In this document: one piece after another, positions 5,577 to 11,390 of the stretch
Layout of the letters: every line of letters starts with the position of its first letter
Numbering within the stretch: the first letter of the stretch is position 1
NCBI GenBank assembly: GCA_003697085.1
Contig: RFFU01000035.1
Span: 1-16,685, forward strand
Length of the DNA stretch: 16,685 nt
Origin: Candidatus Hydrogenedentota bacterium
Lineage (GTDB): Bacteria; UBA8481; J006
Direction: 5' to 3'
Translations under genes and position numbers: made by a program
Notes under the pieces: model-generated
What the model was told of the DNA's origin: nothing
Database searches by the model: none
Seen by the model: only the letters and a program-made list of their open reading frames with translations

Positions 5577-7172
5577 ATGAGTCGCTTCGTCAACGTCCTC
5601 CTCGTCCTCGTTATCGTCGGGCTCCTCGGTTTCATCGCCCTCCGACCGTCGGGCGAAGGCGGTGCCGCGGGAACGGCGGCCTCGGCGCCGGCTTCTTCTT
5701 CCGGAAAACGAAAGATTCTCTATTACAAGGACCCGATGCACCCCTGGCTGACCTCCCCCCGCCCGGGAAAGGCTCCCGACTGCGGAATGGATATGGTCCC
5801 GGTGTATGAAGGCGAGGAAGATGAATCCAATCCGAACGCGATCAAGATCGATCCCGTGATGCAGCAGAACATCGGTGTCCGCACCGCCTTGGCGAAGAAG
5901 CGGATTCTGACACACCGTATCCGAACCACGGGACGCGTCACGTACGATGAACGCCTTATCCGGCACATCCATACGAAGATCAGCGGATGGGTCGAGAAAC
6001 TCTATGTGGATTTCGAGGGAAAGTTCGTGCGGAAAGGCGAGCCGTTGCTCGATATCTACTCCCCGGAACTCGTCTCGACTCAGGAAGAATATCTCCTGGC
6101 TCTCCGAGCGGCCGACCTTTACAGGAAAAGTCCCGACCCGGCGGCCCGCGAGCAGGGAGAGGCGCTCCTTCGCAGCGCGCGCGAACGCCTGGAATACTGG
6201 GATATTTCCGAGGACGAGATTGCGCGCTTGGAAGAGACACGCCGCCCGCGGAAGACCCTCACGCTCTACTCCGAACTCGACGGCATCGTCGTGAAACGCA
6301 ACACCTACGAAGGCCAGCACGTCACCCCGAAGAAGAATCTCTTTATGATCGCCGATATCTCCCGGGTCTGGATCCTGGCTGACATCTATGAATATGAACT
6401 GCCGTGGATCCGCGTTGAGAAGAAAGCCGTCGTCGAATTGCCTCATCTGGGCAAGCGATTGACGGGACGCATCTCCTACATCGACCCCTATCTCAATCCG
6501 AAGACCCGGACGGCCACGATCCGGCTCGAGTTCGACAATCCCGGTTTCACGATGAAGCCCGATATGTATGTGAATGTTCTGATCGACGCGGGGGACGAGC
6601 GGAGAGTCGTGACGGTCCCCGAGGAAGCCGTCATCAACACCGGGCGGCGCAAAGTCGTCGTCGTCGCGCTGGGGAACGGGAAATTCGAGTCGCGTGATGT
6701 CGAACTCGGAAAACGCGGAGATGATTTCATCGAGGTTCGGAAAGGGCTCAGGGAAGGAGAGAAGGTCGTCACGAGTGCGCAGTTCCTGATCGACTCCGAA
6801 AGCCAACTCAAACTCGGAATGGCCAAAATGTCCCATGACATGAGCGCCATGGACGGCAAGAAGAAAAAAGAAGAAAAAGGTTCGGGAAAGGAGCCGGCCT
6901 CCCAACCGGCCGCCGGCGGAACCGACGCGAAAGAGAAGAAGAAGAAAACCTCTTCCGCCCCACCCGCTTCCCAACCCGCCGTGGATCACTCTTCGATGTC
7001 CGGAATGGACCAAGCCTCGATTTCCGGCACGAGGGAAGGAATGAGCGGGATGGACCAATCGGGAATGAGCGGAACGTCGATGGAGGGCGGGACGATGAAA
7101 ATGCCTCCGGCCGCCCCCGCATCCCAACCGAGCGTTTCACCACAAGAGGGCACAAGAGGACACGAGAGGTAA
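5577..7172 (+). CDS. cusB: CusB-like periplasmic adaptor (membrane fusion protein) with Met-rich C-terminal tail
   Basis: Periplasmic adaptor linking the CusA-like pump to the outer-membrane duct. The 531 aa comprise an N-terminal membrane anchor (about 5-22), then a heavy-metal-binding domain (about 48-77: YYKDPMHPW...PDCGMDMVPVY). Next come the MFP beta-barrel and lipoyl segments (HIHTKISGWVEKLYVDFEG, 130-148; LYSELDGIVVKRNTYEGQHV, 230-249), a helical hairpin (about 163-222), and the membrane-proximal domain to ~412. Beyond ~415 is an added tail rich in Lys, Ala-Ser-Gln-Pro linkers and Met, with 12 Met between 415 and 509 and two MSGMDQ units. It resembles Met-rich Cu(I)/Ag(I)-binding segments. 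No CusF gene is seen, so the tail may substitute for that chaperone (inference). The last ~11 residues (SPQEGTRGHER) are encoded by a dispersed repeat, and the TAA overlaps the next ATG. ATG 5577 has AAAGGAG 9 bp upstream. Confidence 0.92.
   Translation: MSRFVNVLLVLVIVGLLGFIALRPSGEGGAAGTAASAPASSSGKRKILYYKDPMHPWLTSPRPGKAPDCGMDMVPVYEGEEDESNPNAIKIDPVMQQNIGVRTALAKKRILTHRIRTTGRVTYDERLIRHIHTKISGWVEKLYVDFEGKFVRKGEPLLDIYSPELVSTQEEYLLALRAADLYRKSPDPAAREQGEALLRSARERLEYWDISEDEIARLEETRRPRKTLTLYSELDGIVVKRNTYEGQHVTPKKNLFMIADISRVWILADIYEYELPWIRVEKKAVVELPHLGKRLTGRISYIDPYLNPKTRTATIRLEFDNPGFTMKPDMYVNVLIDAGDERRVVTVPEEAVINTGRRKVVVVALGNGKFESRDVELGKRGDDFIEVRKGLREGEKVVTSAQFLIDSESQLKLGMAKMSHDMSAMDGKKKKEEKGSGKEPASQPAAGGTDAKEKKKKTSSAPPASQPAVDHSSMSGMDQASISGTREGMSGMDQSGMSGTSMEGGTMKMPPAAPASQPSVSPQEGTRGHER
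7138..7169 (+). repeat. Left repeat copy 1, fused into the cusB 3' end
   Basis: This 32-bp purine-rich repeat matches 7601-7632 at 27 of 32 positions in direct orientation, so the two copies bracket the GxxExxY gene. It encodes the final residues of CusB and supplies GAGAGG, a possible ribosome-binding sequence, just before the ATG at 7172. Confidence 0.7.
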
Positions 7173-7552
7173 TGAAAGAGGATTTTGAAAAAGAACTAAC
7201 GGAAAAGATCATAGGTGCGGCCATCGAAGTGCACCGTGTTCTGGGTCCGGGTCTTCTTGAATCGGCGTACGAGGCCTGTTTGTGTCATGAATTTTCCAAA
7301 AGAGGGATTTCCTTCGAACGCCAAAAGCATTTGCCCATCCGATACAAGGATGTCCGTATTGATTGCGGGTACCGAATGGATTTGGTCGTCGAAGAACGAG
7401 TCGTCATCGAAATCAAGTCTGTCGATAAAATCTTCCCCATCCACGAAGCACAGTTGTTAACGTATTTAAAGATCTCAGGAATCAAGGTTGGTCTGCTTAT
7501 CAATTTTAATTCCAAAGTTCTGATCGAAGGAGTCCGGCGCCTTGTTTATTGA
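7172..7552 (+). CDS. GxxExxY family protein (PD-(D/E)XK nuclease-like fold)
   Basis: A 126-aa protein of the GxxExxY family (TIGR04256 / PDDEXK_3 group). The namesake motif is G27-L-L-E30-S-A-Y33 within VHRVLGPGLLESAYE. A PD-(D/E)XK-like catalytic pattern follows: Asp70 (RMDLVV), then Glu80-Ile-Lys82 (VVIEIKSVDK), then Gln94 in HEAQLLTYL. The C-terminal strand GLLINFNSKVL is typical. The family fold suggests a small nuclease, but no member's biological function is firmly known to me. The ATG overlaps the cusB stop (TAATG), so translation is probably coupled. The sequence is more AT-rich than its neighbours, suggesting separate origin. It is flanked by the repeat family described at 7135-7700. 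No link to copper handling is evident; the gene appears to be a passenger. Full length for the family. Confidence 0.88.
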   Translation: MKEDFEKELTEKIIGAAIEVHRVLGPGLLESAYEACLCHEFSKRGISFERQKHLPIRYKDVRIDCGYRMDLVVEERVVIEIKSVDKIFPIHEAQLLTYLKISGIKVGLLINFNSKVLIEGVRRLVY

Positions 7553-7600
7553 TCTCCCGTTCGTTTCCGCGCCTGCTCGCGAAGAGTCTCTTTTATCGCC

Positions 7601-7697
7601 CACCACAAGAGAGCATCAGAGAACCCGAGAGGGTTTTATGAAAAGCATCCCACTTTTTTTCTCTTTTCTCTCTGTGTTCTCTGTGTGCTCTGTGGTG
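7601..7697 (+). repeat. MITE-like inverted repeat pair just upstream of cusA
   Basis: Left arm 7601-7632 (CACCACAAGAGAGCATCAGA...) and right arm 7667-7697 (CTCTGTGTT, CTCTGTGTG, CTCTGTGGTG) are imperfect reverse complements around a 34-bp spacer. The right arm matches the repeat at 11319-11358 almost perfectly over about 29 bases. The pair could be an independent gene-less copy nested at the right end of the GxxExxY unit. Its transcript would fold into a long imperfect hairpin ahead of the cusA start. Confidence 0.6.
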
Positions 7698-7719
7698 AAA
7701 AACACGGGAGCGTCCTGTC

Positions 7720-10700
7720 GTGCTGGGTAGATTAATCGAGTACAGCGTTAAGAATAAATTCCTCGTTCTCCTCTCGACCGTCATCCTCATCGGTGGTGGC
7801 GTCTATTCGCTGATCAACACGCCGCTCGACGCCATCCCCGACCTCTCCGACGTTCAGGTCATCATCTTCACCGAATACCCGGGGCAGGCGCCGCAGGTTG
7901 TCGAGGACCAGGTGACGTATCCGCTCACCACGGCGATGCTGGCCGTTCCCTACGCCAAGGTCGTCCGCGGCTACTCCTTCTTCGGGTTCTCGTTCGTCTA
8001 TATCATCTTCGAGGACGGGACGGATATGTACTGGGCGCGGAGCCGGGTGCTGGAATACCTCAACTTCGTCGCGGGGCGCCTCCCGCGCGGCGTCACTCCC
8101 CAACTCGGTCCCGACGCCACGGGCGTGGGATGGGTCTTCGAGTATCAACTCGAGGACAAGTCCGGCCGGCACGATCTCTCCGAACTGCGCTCCATCCAGG
8201 ATTGGTACCTCCGCTACGAACTCCAGACGGTGCCCGGCGTTTCCGAAGTCGCCTCGTTGGGCGGCTTCGTGAAGCAATACCAGGTCGAGGTCGATCCAAA
8301 CAAACTGGCGGAATACAACATCCCGTTGCAGAAGGTCCGGCACGCGATTATGCGGAGCAACAACGACGTGGGGGGGCGTTTGATCGAGATGGCGGAGATG
8401 GAATACATGGTGCGGGGGCTGGGTTACATCAAGTCGATCGAGGACCTGAAGCGGATTGCCGTGGGCGTCGATGCCGACGGAACACCGATCTATCTCGAGG
8501 ATGTCGCGGAGGTGCATCTCGGTCCCGAACTGCGGCGCGGGATCGCGGAGTCGAACGGCGAGGGAGAAGTCGTCGGGGGCATCGTCGTGATGCGGTACGG
8601 CGAAAACGCGCTCGACGTGATCGAAGGCGTCAAGAAGAAGTTGGAGGAATTGAAGAAGGGGCTTCCGGAGGGCGTCGAGATCAAGATCGCCTACGACAGG
8701 AGCGACCTGATTCACCGTGCCGTCGAGACGTTGAAGGAGAAACTGGTGGAGGAGAGCCTGATTGTGGCGGCGGTTTGTATGATCTTCCTCTTCCATATGC
8801 GCAGCGCCCTCGTGGCGATCCTCACTCTTCCGGTAGGGATCCTGATGGCCTTCATCGTGATGCACGCGCAGGGCATCAACGCCAACATCATGTCGTTGGG
8901 AGGCATCGCGATCGCGATCGGCGCGATGGTGGACGCCGCGATCGTGATGATCGAGAATGCCCACAAACACCTCGAACACGACGCGGGAAAGAAACCGCAC
9001 TGGGAGATCATCGTGGACGCCGCGAAGGAGGTCGGACCGGCGCTCTTCTTCAGCCTCTTGATCATCACGCTCTCTTTTCTCCCCGTCTTCACGCTGGAGG
9101 CGCAGGAAGGCCGCCTCTTCATGCCCCTGGCCTTCACCAAGACCTACTCGATGGCCGCCGCGGCGCTCTTGGCGGTCACGCTCGTTCCGATCCTGATGGG
9201 ATACTTCATCCGGGAGACGGATCCCCGCCGGAAGTCGTCCCGATTGACCCATCTCCTGGTCGTGGGAACGATGGCGTTTCTCGCCTATTACCTTCGCGAC
9301 TACGGTCTTTGGGTCCCGGTCTTCCTCGGAATAATGATCGTCTTCTATGTCGTTGTCGAAATCTTCTTCCTGAAGGGGAGGATTCCCGAGGAAGATCGGA
9401 ACCCGTTGAACCGCTTCCTGATCCGCATCTACCACCCCGCCGTCTCCACCGTGTTGCGATGGAAATGGACGACGATCACGATCGGATTTCTCCTGCTCAT
9501 CCTCACCTTCTTCCCCTTCAAGAAACTCGTCCTCGATCGGCTCGATCCCCAATCGCCGATCTACGCGGCGGCGGAGAGACTCGATGCGCTCTTCCCGCTC
9601 GAGAAGATCGGCGGCGAGTTTATGCCGCCGCTGTACGAGGGCGACCTGCTCTATATGCCCACGACTCTGCCGGGAATCTCGGTCACCACGGCGCGGACGC
9701 TGCTCCAGCAGACCGACAAGATCATCGCCGCCTTTCCCGAGGTCCACCACGTCTTCGGCAAGATCGGGCGCGCGGAGTCGGCGACCGATCCCGCGCCGCT
9801 CTCGATGATCGAGACCGTTATCCGGCTCAAGCCGGAGGAGGAATGGCGGGACGTGACTGTCGAGCGCTGGTACTCGAAGAAGAACTATCCCGAGTTTTTG
9901 AAGAAGGTCTTCCGGAAGATCTGGCCGGAGAAGCGCAAGATCACCGTGCAGGAACTGACCGATGAACTGGAGAAGGCCATCAAGTTTCCCGGCGTGACCA
10001 ACGCCTGGACGATGCCGATCAAAACGCGCGTCGATATGCTCTCCACCGGAATCAAGACCCCTGTCGGGATCAAGATCGCCGGCGACGACTTGAACAAACT
10101 CCAAGAGATCGGCAAGAAGGTCGAGGCGATCATCCGCACCGTGCCGGGGACCTTGAGCGCGTATGCGGAACGGGCGGTCGGCGGGAACTACGTCGATTTC
10201 GCCATCCGCCGGAACGAGATCGCCCGCTACGGCCTCACCGTCGGCGACGTCCAGGACATCATTATGAGCGCGGTGGGCGGAATGAACATTACGTACACGG
10301 TCGAGGGACTGGAACGCTACCCCGTGAACCTGCGGTATCCGCGGGAACTGCGCGACAACATCGAGGCCTTGCGACGGGTGCTCGTTCCGACGCCGCGCGG
10401 GGAACAGATTCCGCTCGAACAACTCGCCGACATCGTCGTCCGCAAGGGGCCGCCGGGAATCAAGAGCGAGAACGCCCGGTTGAACGCGTGGGTTTACGTG
10501 GACATCACGGGCGTGGACGTGGCGACCTACGTCAAGGCCGCCCGCGAAACACTCGACCGCGAACTCGATCTCCCCGCCGGCTACTCGATCACCTGGTCCG
10601 GGCAGTACGAATATATGGAACGGGCCCAGAAGCGGCTCCAACTTGTGGTTCCCGTGACCCTCTTGATCGTCTTCATCCTCCTCTACCTCAACTTCCGCAA

Positions 10701-11253
10701 CATAACGGAATCTCTTATCGTGATGCTTTCTCTTCCGTTTGCTCTGGTGGGCGGTGTCTGGCTCGTGTATCTGCTCGATTACAATATGTCGATCGCCGTC
10801 GGTGTCGGATTCATCGCGCTGGCCGGTGTCGCGGCGGAGATCGGGGTGATTATGATTATGTACCTCGATCACGCTCTGGAGCGGGCCCGGCGCGGTGGGA
10901 ACCCCATCGACGTCGGAATCTTGGAGCAGAGCATCATCGAAGGCGCGGCGCTGAGGGTGCGTCCGATCGCTATGACCGTCAGCGCCATCATCGGCGGACT
11001 CCTACCGATTATGTGGAGCCACGGGACGGGGAGCCAGGTGATGAAACGGATCGCCGCGCCGATGGTCGGCGGTATGGTCTCCGCCACGATCCTGACGCTC
11101 TTGATGATTCCGGCGATCTACAGGATCTGGCGGGGTTGGGGAATGCGTGGTGCGCGCCGGGCGGCGGCTCCAGCGGCTCCGGCGGCGGCATCCTCGGCGG
11201 GGACCAAGCCGGCTGTCGGCCCAGAGAACGCTTACGAGGACGAGGAGGAATGA
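7720..11253 (+). CDS. cusA: CusA-like heavy-metal RND efflux pump
   Basis: Inner-membrane RND transporter of the HME subfamily, which uses the proton gradient to expel Cu(I)/Ag(I) through CusB and the outer-membrane factor. Key features: NTPLDAIPDLSDVQVII (33-49), the TM4 proton-relay Asp405 in GAMVDAAIVMIENAHK, and three Met of the CusA ladder. These Met align with E. coli M573, M623 and M672: M646 (LLYMPTTLPG), M696 (PLSMIETVIR) and M773 (DMLSTGIKTP). At 1177 aa it is ~130 longer than E. coli CusA. The extra length is a ~55-residue insertion near 498-555 with two added hydrophobic segments, an insertion near 602-627, ~25 residues near 711-740, and an Ala/Pro-rich C-terminal tail. The start is GTG at 7720 (MLGRLIEYSVKNKF, the canonical CusA N-terminus), with GGGAG ~10 bp upstream. 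The 167 bp before it are repeat-derived, not the usual cusBA spacing. Confidence 0.95.
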   Translation: MLGRLIEYSVKNKFLVLLSTVILIGGGVYSLINTPLDAIPDLSDVQVIIFTEYPGQAPQVVEDQVTYPLTTAMLAVPYAKVVRGYSFFGFSFVYIIFEDGTDMYWARSRVLEYLNFVAGRLPRGVTPQLGPDATGVGWVFEYQLEDKSGRHDLSELRSIQDWYLRYELQTVPGVSEVASLGGFVKQYQVEVDPNKLAEYNIPLQKVRHAIMRSNNDVGGRLIEMAEMEYMVRGLGYIKSIEDLKRIAVGVDADGTPIYLEDVAEVHLGPELRRGIAESNGEGEVVGGIVVMRYGENALDVIEGVKKKLEELKKGLPEGVEIKIAYDRSDLIHRAVETLKEKLVEESLIVAAVCMIFLFHMRSALVAILTLPVGILMAFIVMHAQGINANIMSLGGIAIAIGAMVDAAIVMIENAHKHLEHDAGKKPHWEIIVDAAKEVGPALFFSLLIITLSFLPVFTLEAQEGRLFMPLAFTKTYSMAAAALLAVTLVPILMGYFIRETDPRRKSSRLTHLLVVGTMAFLAYYLRDYGLWVPVFLGIMIVFYVVVEIFFLKGRIPEEDRNPLNRFLIRIYHPAVSTVLRWKWTTITIGFLLLILTFFPFKKLVLDRLDPQSPIYAAAERLDALFPLEKIGGEFMPPLYEGDLLYMPTTLPGISVTTARTLLQQTDKIIAAFPEVHHVFGKIGRAESATDPAPLSMIETVIRLKPEEEWRDVTVERWYSKKNYPEFLKKVFRKIWPEKRKITVQELTDELEKAIKFPGVTNAWTMPIKTRVDMLSTGIKTPVGIKIAGDDLNKLQEIGKKVEAIIRTVPGTLSAYAERAVGGNYVDFAIRRNEIARYGLTVGDVQDIIMSAVGGMNITYTVEGLERYPVNLRYPRELRDNIEALRRVLVPTPRGEQIPLEQLADIVVRKGPPGIKSENARLNAWVYVDITGVDVATYVKAARETLDRELDLPAGYSITWSGQYEYMERAQKRLQLVVPVTLLIVFILLYLNFRNITESLIVMLSLPFALVGGVWLVYLLDYNMSIAVGVGFIALAGVAAEIGVIMIMYLDHALERARRGGNPIDVGILEQSIIEGAALRVRPIAMTVSAIIGGLLPIMWSHGTGSQVMKRIAAPMVGGMVSATILTLLMIPAIYRIWRGWGMRGARRAAAPAAPAAASSAGTKPAVGPENAYEDEEE

Positions 11254-11318
11254 GCCGGTGATGGCTCCGGAATCGATGGGCGCGGGAACGAAAATCCGTT
11301 CTCCCTATTCTTCATTTT

Positions 11319-11390
11319 TCCTCTGTGATTTCTCTGTGTTCTCCGTGTGCTCTGTGGTTTCCTCGTATGCGATTTGCGGGAGTCCGGCGA
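11319..11390 (+). repeat. Second copy of the CTCTGTG repeat with conserved flank
   Basis: It aligns without gaps to 1941-2012 at 57 of 72 positions (counted by eye), including the flank with CTCGTATGC and GGAGTCCGG. Its core also matches the right arm at 7667-7696. No left-type partner was found upstream, so this is a solo right end. Confidence 0.7.

Follow-up and report, generated by a model that had tools for sequence, protein, structure and literature searches.

GxxExxY nuclease genes between inverted iterated arrays: a probable, widespread and apparently undescribed kind of mobile element

The window analysed here, a stretch of 16,685 bp from a Candidatus Hydrogenedentota genome (contig RFFU01000035.1), raises the question of why a small nuclease gene of the GxxExxY family lies between cusB and cusA, in a unit at 7135-7700 whose two ends mirror each other. 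A preliminary description, made from the letters of the sequence alone, had proposed a non-autonomous or homing-like element in which the GxxExxY protein acts on the repeats. The comparisons described below lead us to regard the unit as a probable member of a large family of mobile elements, each made of a nuclease gene and its cognate inverted arrays, in which the nuclease would cut its own ends. It appears to be a widespread kind of mobile element that has apparently remained undescribed so far. The features of the locus are as follows.

7135-7169, forward strand: left end, TTTCACC followed by three iterated units, CACAAGAGGG CACAAGAGGA CACGAGAGG (from the sequence, repeat family D7 and the inverted match with the right end)
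7172-7552, forward strand: GxxExxY gene, encoding a 126-residue PD-(D/E)XK nuclease (from TIGR04256, PF13366, conservation and a structure model)
7601-7632, forward strand: internal second copy of the left array, sharing 84% identity with it (repeat search, family D7)
7665-7700, forward strand: right end, inverted array of CTCTGTG units, the last being CTCTGTGGTGAAA (sequence and repeat search)
7601-7700, no strand assigned: nested gene-less hairpin, formed by the internal left array and the right array (RNA and DNA folding)
5577-7172, forward strand: cusB (adaptor), whose last 11 codons and stop codon are supplied by the left end of the element
7720-11253, forward strand: cusA, the downstream host gene, encoding a resistance-nodulation-division pump (TIGR00914, 1240 bits)

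The exact 10-bp terminal inverted repeat noticed at first is present (TTTCACCACA at 7135-7144, TGTGGTGAAA at 7691-7700) and forms the outer tips of two inverted arrays with a unit of about 9 bp, of the type CACAGAGnn. The left array holds three CACAAGAG/CACGAGAG units and the right array repeats with a 9-bp period (CTCTGTGTT-CTCTGTGTG-CTCTGTGG). The imperfect inverted similarity described further inward is also real. Aligned locally in inverted orientation, the two flanks reach a best score of 31, the 99th percentile for 431 control windows from other loci being 27.7. Allowing up to 2 mismatches, CTCTGTGNNCTCTGTG occurs 9 times in the window versus 0.04 times expected. The order of parts is left array, gene, left array, right array; owing to the second left array, segment 7601-7700 is a complete gene-less hairpin, with a folding energy of −42.7 kcal/mol as RNA (z −5.9) and a z of −4.4 as DNA. 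GxxExxY (PDDEXK_3) is indeed the sole gene of the unit, and it is more AT-rich than the cus genes, as had been remarked: G+C drops to 46-50% in the unit versus about 60% around it. The left arm lies within the cusB reading frame, so that CusB ends in the tail SPQEGTRGHER and a stop codon that both come from the element, and this stop overlaps the GxxExxY start (TAATG, 7170-7174). No target duplication was found at this unit, in agreement with the preliminary description.

Inverted arrays turned out to be the rule at GxxExxY loci. We gathered 29 loci out of 60 genomes, each of a different family, and added 80 that were found by scanning 84,980 species genomes; they cover Pseudomonadota, Planctomycetota, Chloroflexota, Acidobacteriota, Bacteroidota, the archaeon Methanothrix and other groups. 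In all, this layout is seen in at least a dozen phyla of Bacteria and Archaea. Each locus was scored by its best inverted match between the 300 bp upstream and the 300 bp downstream, and the threshold was set at the 99th percentile of the control windows, 431 in number and taken from the same loci. Arrays above this threshold bound 84% of 77 loci, with a mean score of 41.9 versus 19.1 in the controls and 23.1 when upstream and downstream regions of different loci were paired. In an independent set, drawn with a hidden Markov model from 299 Pseudomonadota genomes, 72% of 29 loci exceeded the same preset threshold (mean 37.9). The remark that similar repeats (CCACAGAGxxCACAGAG) often precede GxxExxY genes elsewhere agrees with this result. 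A lack of association beyond chance had been named as one of two possible refutations of the idea; the association is strong. Elements span a median of 490 bp. Their units are 9-11 bp long, of the type CRCNRAG or CRCNNAT, and the outer tip has the consensus TT[CA]ACCRC. From element to element the units vary (CACAGAG, CACGGAG, CACGAAG, CGCAGAG, CACAAAG, CGCAGATT, CGCCGATGAA, CGCGAAG and more); within one element the left and right ends agree in unit sequence. The left end often begins at, or directly after, the stop codon of the upstream gene. Isolate or complete records with the same units include Bacteroides finegoldii, Sphingomonas parapaucimobilis, Bernardetia, Gemmatirosa, Stieleria and Psychroflexus; the layout is fabD, TTTTTTCACGCGAAGGCGCG, GxxExxY, CGCGGCTTCGCGTGAA, fabG in Sphingomonas and radA-TAG, GTTCACCACAGAGGACGCAGAGG, GxxExxY, CCTCTGTGTCCTCTGTGGTGAA in B. 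finegoldii. A single 10-bp inverted match could arise by chance, but a chance repeat or an assembly artefact is already refuted by the repeat excess in the window, the locus scores, the independent set, the complete isolate genomes and the co-occurrence within genomes described below, and we give it practically no credence.

The ends and the protein are inherited together. In a phylogeny of 74 proteins, 2 changes suffice for the AG/AT suffix of the unit, versus 8.7 after shuffling (shuffle minimum 6); the CAC/CGC start requires 12 versus 19.7, and the middle bases 22 versus 34.6. For each of these three characters, 0 of 300 shuffles matched the observed count. A Mantel-type comparison of ends with proteins gave r 0.48 (p about 5e-4). 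The independent Pseudomonadota set shows the same pairing, FLEKVYENA-type proteins occurring with CRCNGATGAA-type ends and LLESAYE-type proteins mostly with CRCNRAG ends. Host phylum changes 23 times on a 50-protein tree that takes in 11 phyla, and the units therefore cross phyla.

Empty sites, whose absence had been named as the other possible refutation, were found at two junctions, so that neither refutation held. The gap between cusB and cusA measures −20 to 129 bp in 8 other, unrelated genomes with a related pump and 548 bp here; the junction lacks the insert in all 8. In most Bacteroides species radA is adjacent to a gene for a flavin adenine dinucleotide (FAD) protein and the gap is empty. 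At the Bacteroides loci compared for this junction (L192, L250, L252, L257, L220, L262), three near relatives hold an element of the CACAGAG type and another Bacteroides has one of the CACAGATTA type; a third lineage retains an element in decay, its gene broken and its ends of the CCGCAGATTTTC type, and a fourth keeps just a solitary remnant of an end. The three GxxExxY proteins encoded there are mutually 52-60% identical, no closer than to proteins of other phyla, versus 76-92% identity of the adjacent FAD protein to that of B. finegoldii. At least three separate arrivals must therefore have taken place, and the radA-FAD junction in Bacteroides is an insertion hotspot. This repeated occupation of one site weakly suggests the homing-like behaviour first proposed. 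Homing endonucleases offer the same picture of a nuclease gene as selfish insert in a re-used site; however, GxxExxY units insert between genes and not into an intron, intein or conserved target, and they possess terminal repeats and dispersed copies. Phages seem to play little part in carriage: GxxExxY was absent from 50,697 phage records and had 3 matches in 2.9 million viral contigs.

Long flanking duplications reached a score of at least 30 in 9% of elements versus 0.9% of controls. As a general signature they were rejected, being real in few loci only (L060, at the tyrS 3' end; L058, L064, L159). At L058 (1355-2050), L060, L074 and L159, ends of neighbouring genes are duplicated together with element ends over 24 to at least 60 bp; among them are what seem to be a tyrS 3' end and the first part of hisG. 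Tandem duplication and long-stagger insertion are suggested as alternative origins.

The gene is also accompanied by gene-less arrays elsewhere in the same genomes. We counted the two array classes, AG and AT, in the 60 genomes and called a genome array-rich when it held at least 3 arrays of a class. GxxExxY is present in 14 of the 15 array-rich genomes, though only in 18 of the 60 overall (p 2.4e-9), and array copy number follows GxxExxY gene number (rho 0.73, 60 genomes). In clear cases the class is matched too: genome G048, with one AG-type gene, contains 129 matches of AG type versus 1 of AT type, and G049, whose genes are of AT type, has 54 AT-type matches and none of AG type. Most of the copies sampled in G048 are solo ends (AACCACAGAGTCACAGAGGACACAGAG), the others being hairpins. 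Direct repeats of the left end and the gene start at L139, L127 and L108 are as expected for internal deletion derivatives. The autonomous/non-autonomous relation put forward earlier draws support both from the gene-less copies that track the gene and from these deletion-type copies that keep its start.

Two nearby array copies in the window, at about 1776-1980 and 11313-11358, had been taken for gene-less copies of the unit. Both instead lie inside a 277-bp miniature inverted-repeat transposable element (MITE) of unrelated type, intact at 1733-2009 with the terminal repeat CCGGAGTTCTGCAGG and truncated to its right half at 11304-11387; the actual gene-less hairpin is the one nested at 7601-7700. 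The MITE has at least 8 copies in the source genome, with target duplications of 7-8 bp in 7 of 8 measurable copies. Because it has terminal repeats of its own and makes target duplications, it was rejected as a gene-bearing unit minus its gene. Its interior is a CACAGAG/CTCCGTG array hairpin, and one type of mobile element has apparently swallowed the arms of another.

Arrays carried inside a MITE that makes target duplications fit an explanation in which the units are mobile, GxxExxY is a passenger or accessory, and another enzyme, an insertion sequence (IS) transposase or one of the type of REP-associated tyrosine transposases (RAYTs), moves array-bounded DNA in trans. Solo ends are common, as this explanation would have it, and four-helix-bundle genes in analogous array-bounded units of other sequence make the gene look exchangeable. 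Yet gene-less arrays are nearly confined to GxxExxY genomes, the end class follows the GxxExxY phylogeny, gene-bearing units share no other gene, and they lack the target duplication expected from an IS transposase. We consider a mere passenger role unlikely.

The protein itself is compatible with an active role. It belongs to TIGR04256 (160 bits, cut-off 35) and to PF13366, PDDEXK_3 (155 bits, cut-off 22). Residues E30, D70, E80, K82, Q94 and Y98 are all invariant or nearly so in two alignments (D70 and K82 invariant, E80 in at least 90% of members) and make up the RecB/Cas4-type motif set E-D-ExK-QxxxY. The structure model, with a predicted local distance difference test score (pLDDT) of 96, shows a bare, minimal PD-(D/E)XK fold, which together with the D-ExK residues places the protein in this superfamily. 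Its best solved fold match is SSO0001 (Z 9.5, 100 residues, root-mean-square deviation 4.4), a Cas4 protein; Hjc resolvases, lambda-type exonucleases and Dna2/AddAB nuclease domains rank lower, and Z values below 8 do not discriminate there. A sequence search of the PDB gave nothing significant, the best match being T7 endonuclease I (E about 1). The likeness to Cas4, lambda exonuclease and RecB thus lies in fold and motifs. A Cas4 sequence match is weak and below threshold in 35 of 58 members, and PF01930 scores 18.2 bits against a cut-off of 22.7, which leaves the protein outside the Cas4 family. It further differs from Cas4 in its 126 residues, in having a single conserved cysteine (C36) and therefore no four-cysteine Fe-S cluster, in having no cas neighbours (no cas genes among the searched window proteins) and in travelling with its own end repeats. 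The model suggests a metal-dependent DNA nuclease that may act on ends, flaps or junctions.

A fold resembling Cas4, lambda exonuclease and Hjc-type resolvases would equally suit a structure-specific host nuclease that polices palindromes, the arrays being targets that accumulate beside its gene, and in many hosts there are one or few copies of GxxExxY per genome. But GxxExxY sits at unrelated loci, with up to 11 matches per genome, a sporadic distribution, decayed copies and empty sites, which is the behaviour of mobile elements, and arrays increase, not decrease, with gene number; a policing function is very unlikely.

Orientation and folding raise another explanation, an RNA-level element: an insert in operons that is co-transcribed with adjoining genes and then cut from the messenger RNA or shielded as a long hairpin, like intervening sequences (IVS) of 23S ribosomal RNA (rRNA), and spread by rare recombination. 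The ends do fold strongly as RNA, the GxxExxY start codon overlaps the cusB stop, and among 65 loci at which a gene was called on either side, 41 share the direction of both neighbours (control 20 of 47), the upstream neighbour alone being co-directional in 54 of 75. Analogous units moreover carry a four-helix-bundle gene of the S23/IVP type. On the other side, GxxExxY has the fold of a DNA nuclease and no RNA-binding four-helix bundle, at least a quarter of the loci are not co-directional, and an RNA-level element alone gives no account of dozens to more than 100 dispersed solo ends. An element acting on RNA therefore appears decidedly improbable. S23/TIGR02436 intervening sequences share with our units a short gene enclosed by inverted hairpin-forming ends, but the protein fold is unrelated and the unit sequences differ (for example GGATTAGGGATT and AGGTAAAGGGTAA); classical IVS lie in rRNA genes and are removed by RNase III, whereas the unit of the window lies between cusB and cusA.

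The TIGR02436 loci that we inspected (L163-L191, L033) are themselves bounded by inverted iterated arrays (the two sequences just given, GTAGGTCGTAGGT, AGAAGACAGAAG and others), with a mean inverted score of 37.9 versus 19.0 in same-locus controls, and TIGR02436 genes occur in 15 of the 18 GxxExxY genomes (p 2e-5). These four-helix-bundle array units are likely a sister element family. As a source of the CACAGAG arrays the four-helix-bundle genes were rejected: 9 genomes with such a gene and no GxxExxY are without arrays.

We infer that GxxExxY is the mobilising enzyme of the family. The nuclease would recognise the arrays of its own element, probably when these are folded back into hairpins or cruciforms in single-stranded or supercoiled DNA, and would cleave at the ends, at the TT[CA]ACC tip. 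Host repair might then fix the freed or copied unit in short intergenic gaps, often directly behind a stop codon within an operon, with no regular target duplication. Internal deletion would yield hairpins and end-only copies would yield solo ends, both mobilisable in trans.

Several observations weigh against this reading. Short target duplications did not exceed chance in 54 elements, at lengths of 3-10 bp and with end extensions of 0-7 bp, so that there is no insertion signature beyond the empty sites; filled and empty pairs gave no exact footprint because the intergenic gaps of Bacteroides are too divergent. About 15-28% of GxxExxY loci are without clear arms (Rhodopila L146, for example), and L257 has an AT-type end beside a protein closer to the AG group. 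Genome G043 has arrays without GxxExxY, and in G002 and G019 the arrays are mostly of another class than the GxxExxY gene examined. Co-inheritance is expected from linkage alone and therefore shows a unit, not recognition. The literature searched contained no structure, assay, cleavage or movement of a GxxExxY protein. What stands of the preliminary reading is the array association, the empty sites and the gene-less derivatives; what falls is the identity of the two nearby copies.

The whole would amount to the logic of REPtrons with a different enzyme. In REPtrons, a gene is flanked by inverted palindromic copies, gene-less copies are many and repeat abundance is correlated with the gene, and TnpA-REP is reported to be single-copy as a rule, with no evidence of mobility of its own (PMC8266576). 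The GxxExxY units resemble this system of repetitive extragenic palindromes (REPs), bacterial interspersed mosaic elements and TnpA-REP/RAYT in their small extragenic palindromes, in the nuclease gene between inverted copies and in the dispersed gene-less copies, which track the gene in the 14 of 15 array-rich genomes mentioned above. They differ in their enzyme, the unit holding only a PDDEXK_3 nuclease of the Cas4/lambda-exonuclease type and no HUH (Y1) TnpA-REP gene; in their ends, arrays of 3-4 short direct units with the TT[CA]ACCRC outer consensus in place of a GTAG-tagged palindrome; and in the gene-bearing unit, which itself occurs at many sites and in several copies. MITEs and IS have terminal inverted repeats and short non-autonomous copies in common with the units, but the latter contain no known transposase, show no target duplication above chance in the 54 elements, and end in iterated arrays.

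A broader proposal can be put forward tentatively: that GxxExxY is a new class of mobilising nuclease encoded by the element itself, Cas4-like with a PD-(D/E)XK fold and neither DDE nor HUH, which moves its own array ends, as well as the gene-less hairpins and solo ends derived from them, among phyla of Bacteria and Archaea. Joined with the four-helix-bundle units, its units would make up a superclass of "iterated-array" elements. Such a superclass, if real, would account for the CACAGAG, CGCAGATT and CACGAAGG repeats scattered in environmental genomes. GxxExxY is a very common uncharacterised family of small nucleases, with at least 581 matches in one scan and presence in 58 of 299 Pseudomonadota genomes. 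Our reading, if true, would give this family a function, explain a widespread class of intergenic repeats, add a PD-(D/E)XK route to the DDE and HUH enzymes of mobile DNA, and provide many natural pairs of a nuclease and its matching ends, in which specificity could be examined directly.

The literature searched held no description of GxxExxY with repeats and no function for it; most subscription papers and database notes lay outside the search, and novelty is therefore provisional. There we found no mention of TIGR04256 and one passing use of PF13366. In one article a cas4 neighbour of a reverse transcriptase is annotated as GxxExxY (PMC8934634), and the name also occurs in a paper on an algal-virus genome. 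The only array strings in the literature searched were those of a Bacteroides fragilis primer and of a heart paper on another subject. In the first case, the published primers AACTCTGTGTTCTCTGTGGTG and AACTCTGTGTTCCTCTGTGGTG for the invertible promoter region of BF2782 correspond to an end array of the GxxExxY-element type, which adjoins a phase-variable capsule locus (PMC3090145).

CACAGAG/CACGGA arrays often abut a second iterated array, (GGCAAAA)n, (GGCAAGA)n, (AGGGTTCG)n or polypurine, as in solo arrays of G000 and G048 (L008, L009, L046, L279, L291) and at L311 and L054. In the last two the second array is also inverted around the gene. Nested or composite ends thus occur in unrelated genomes.

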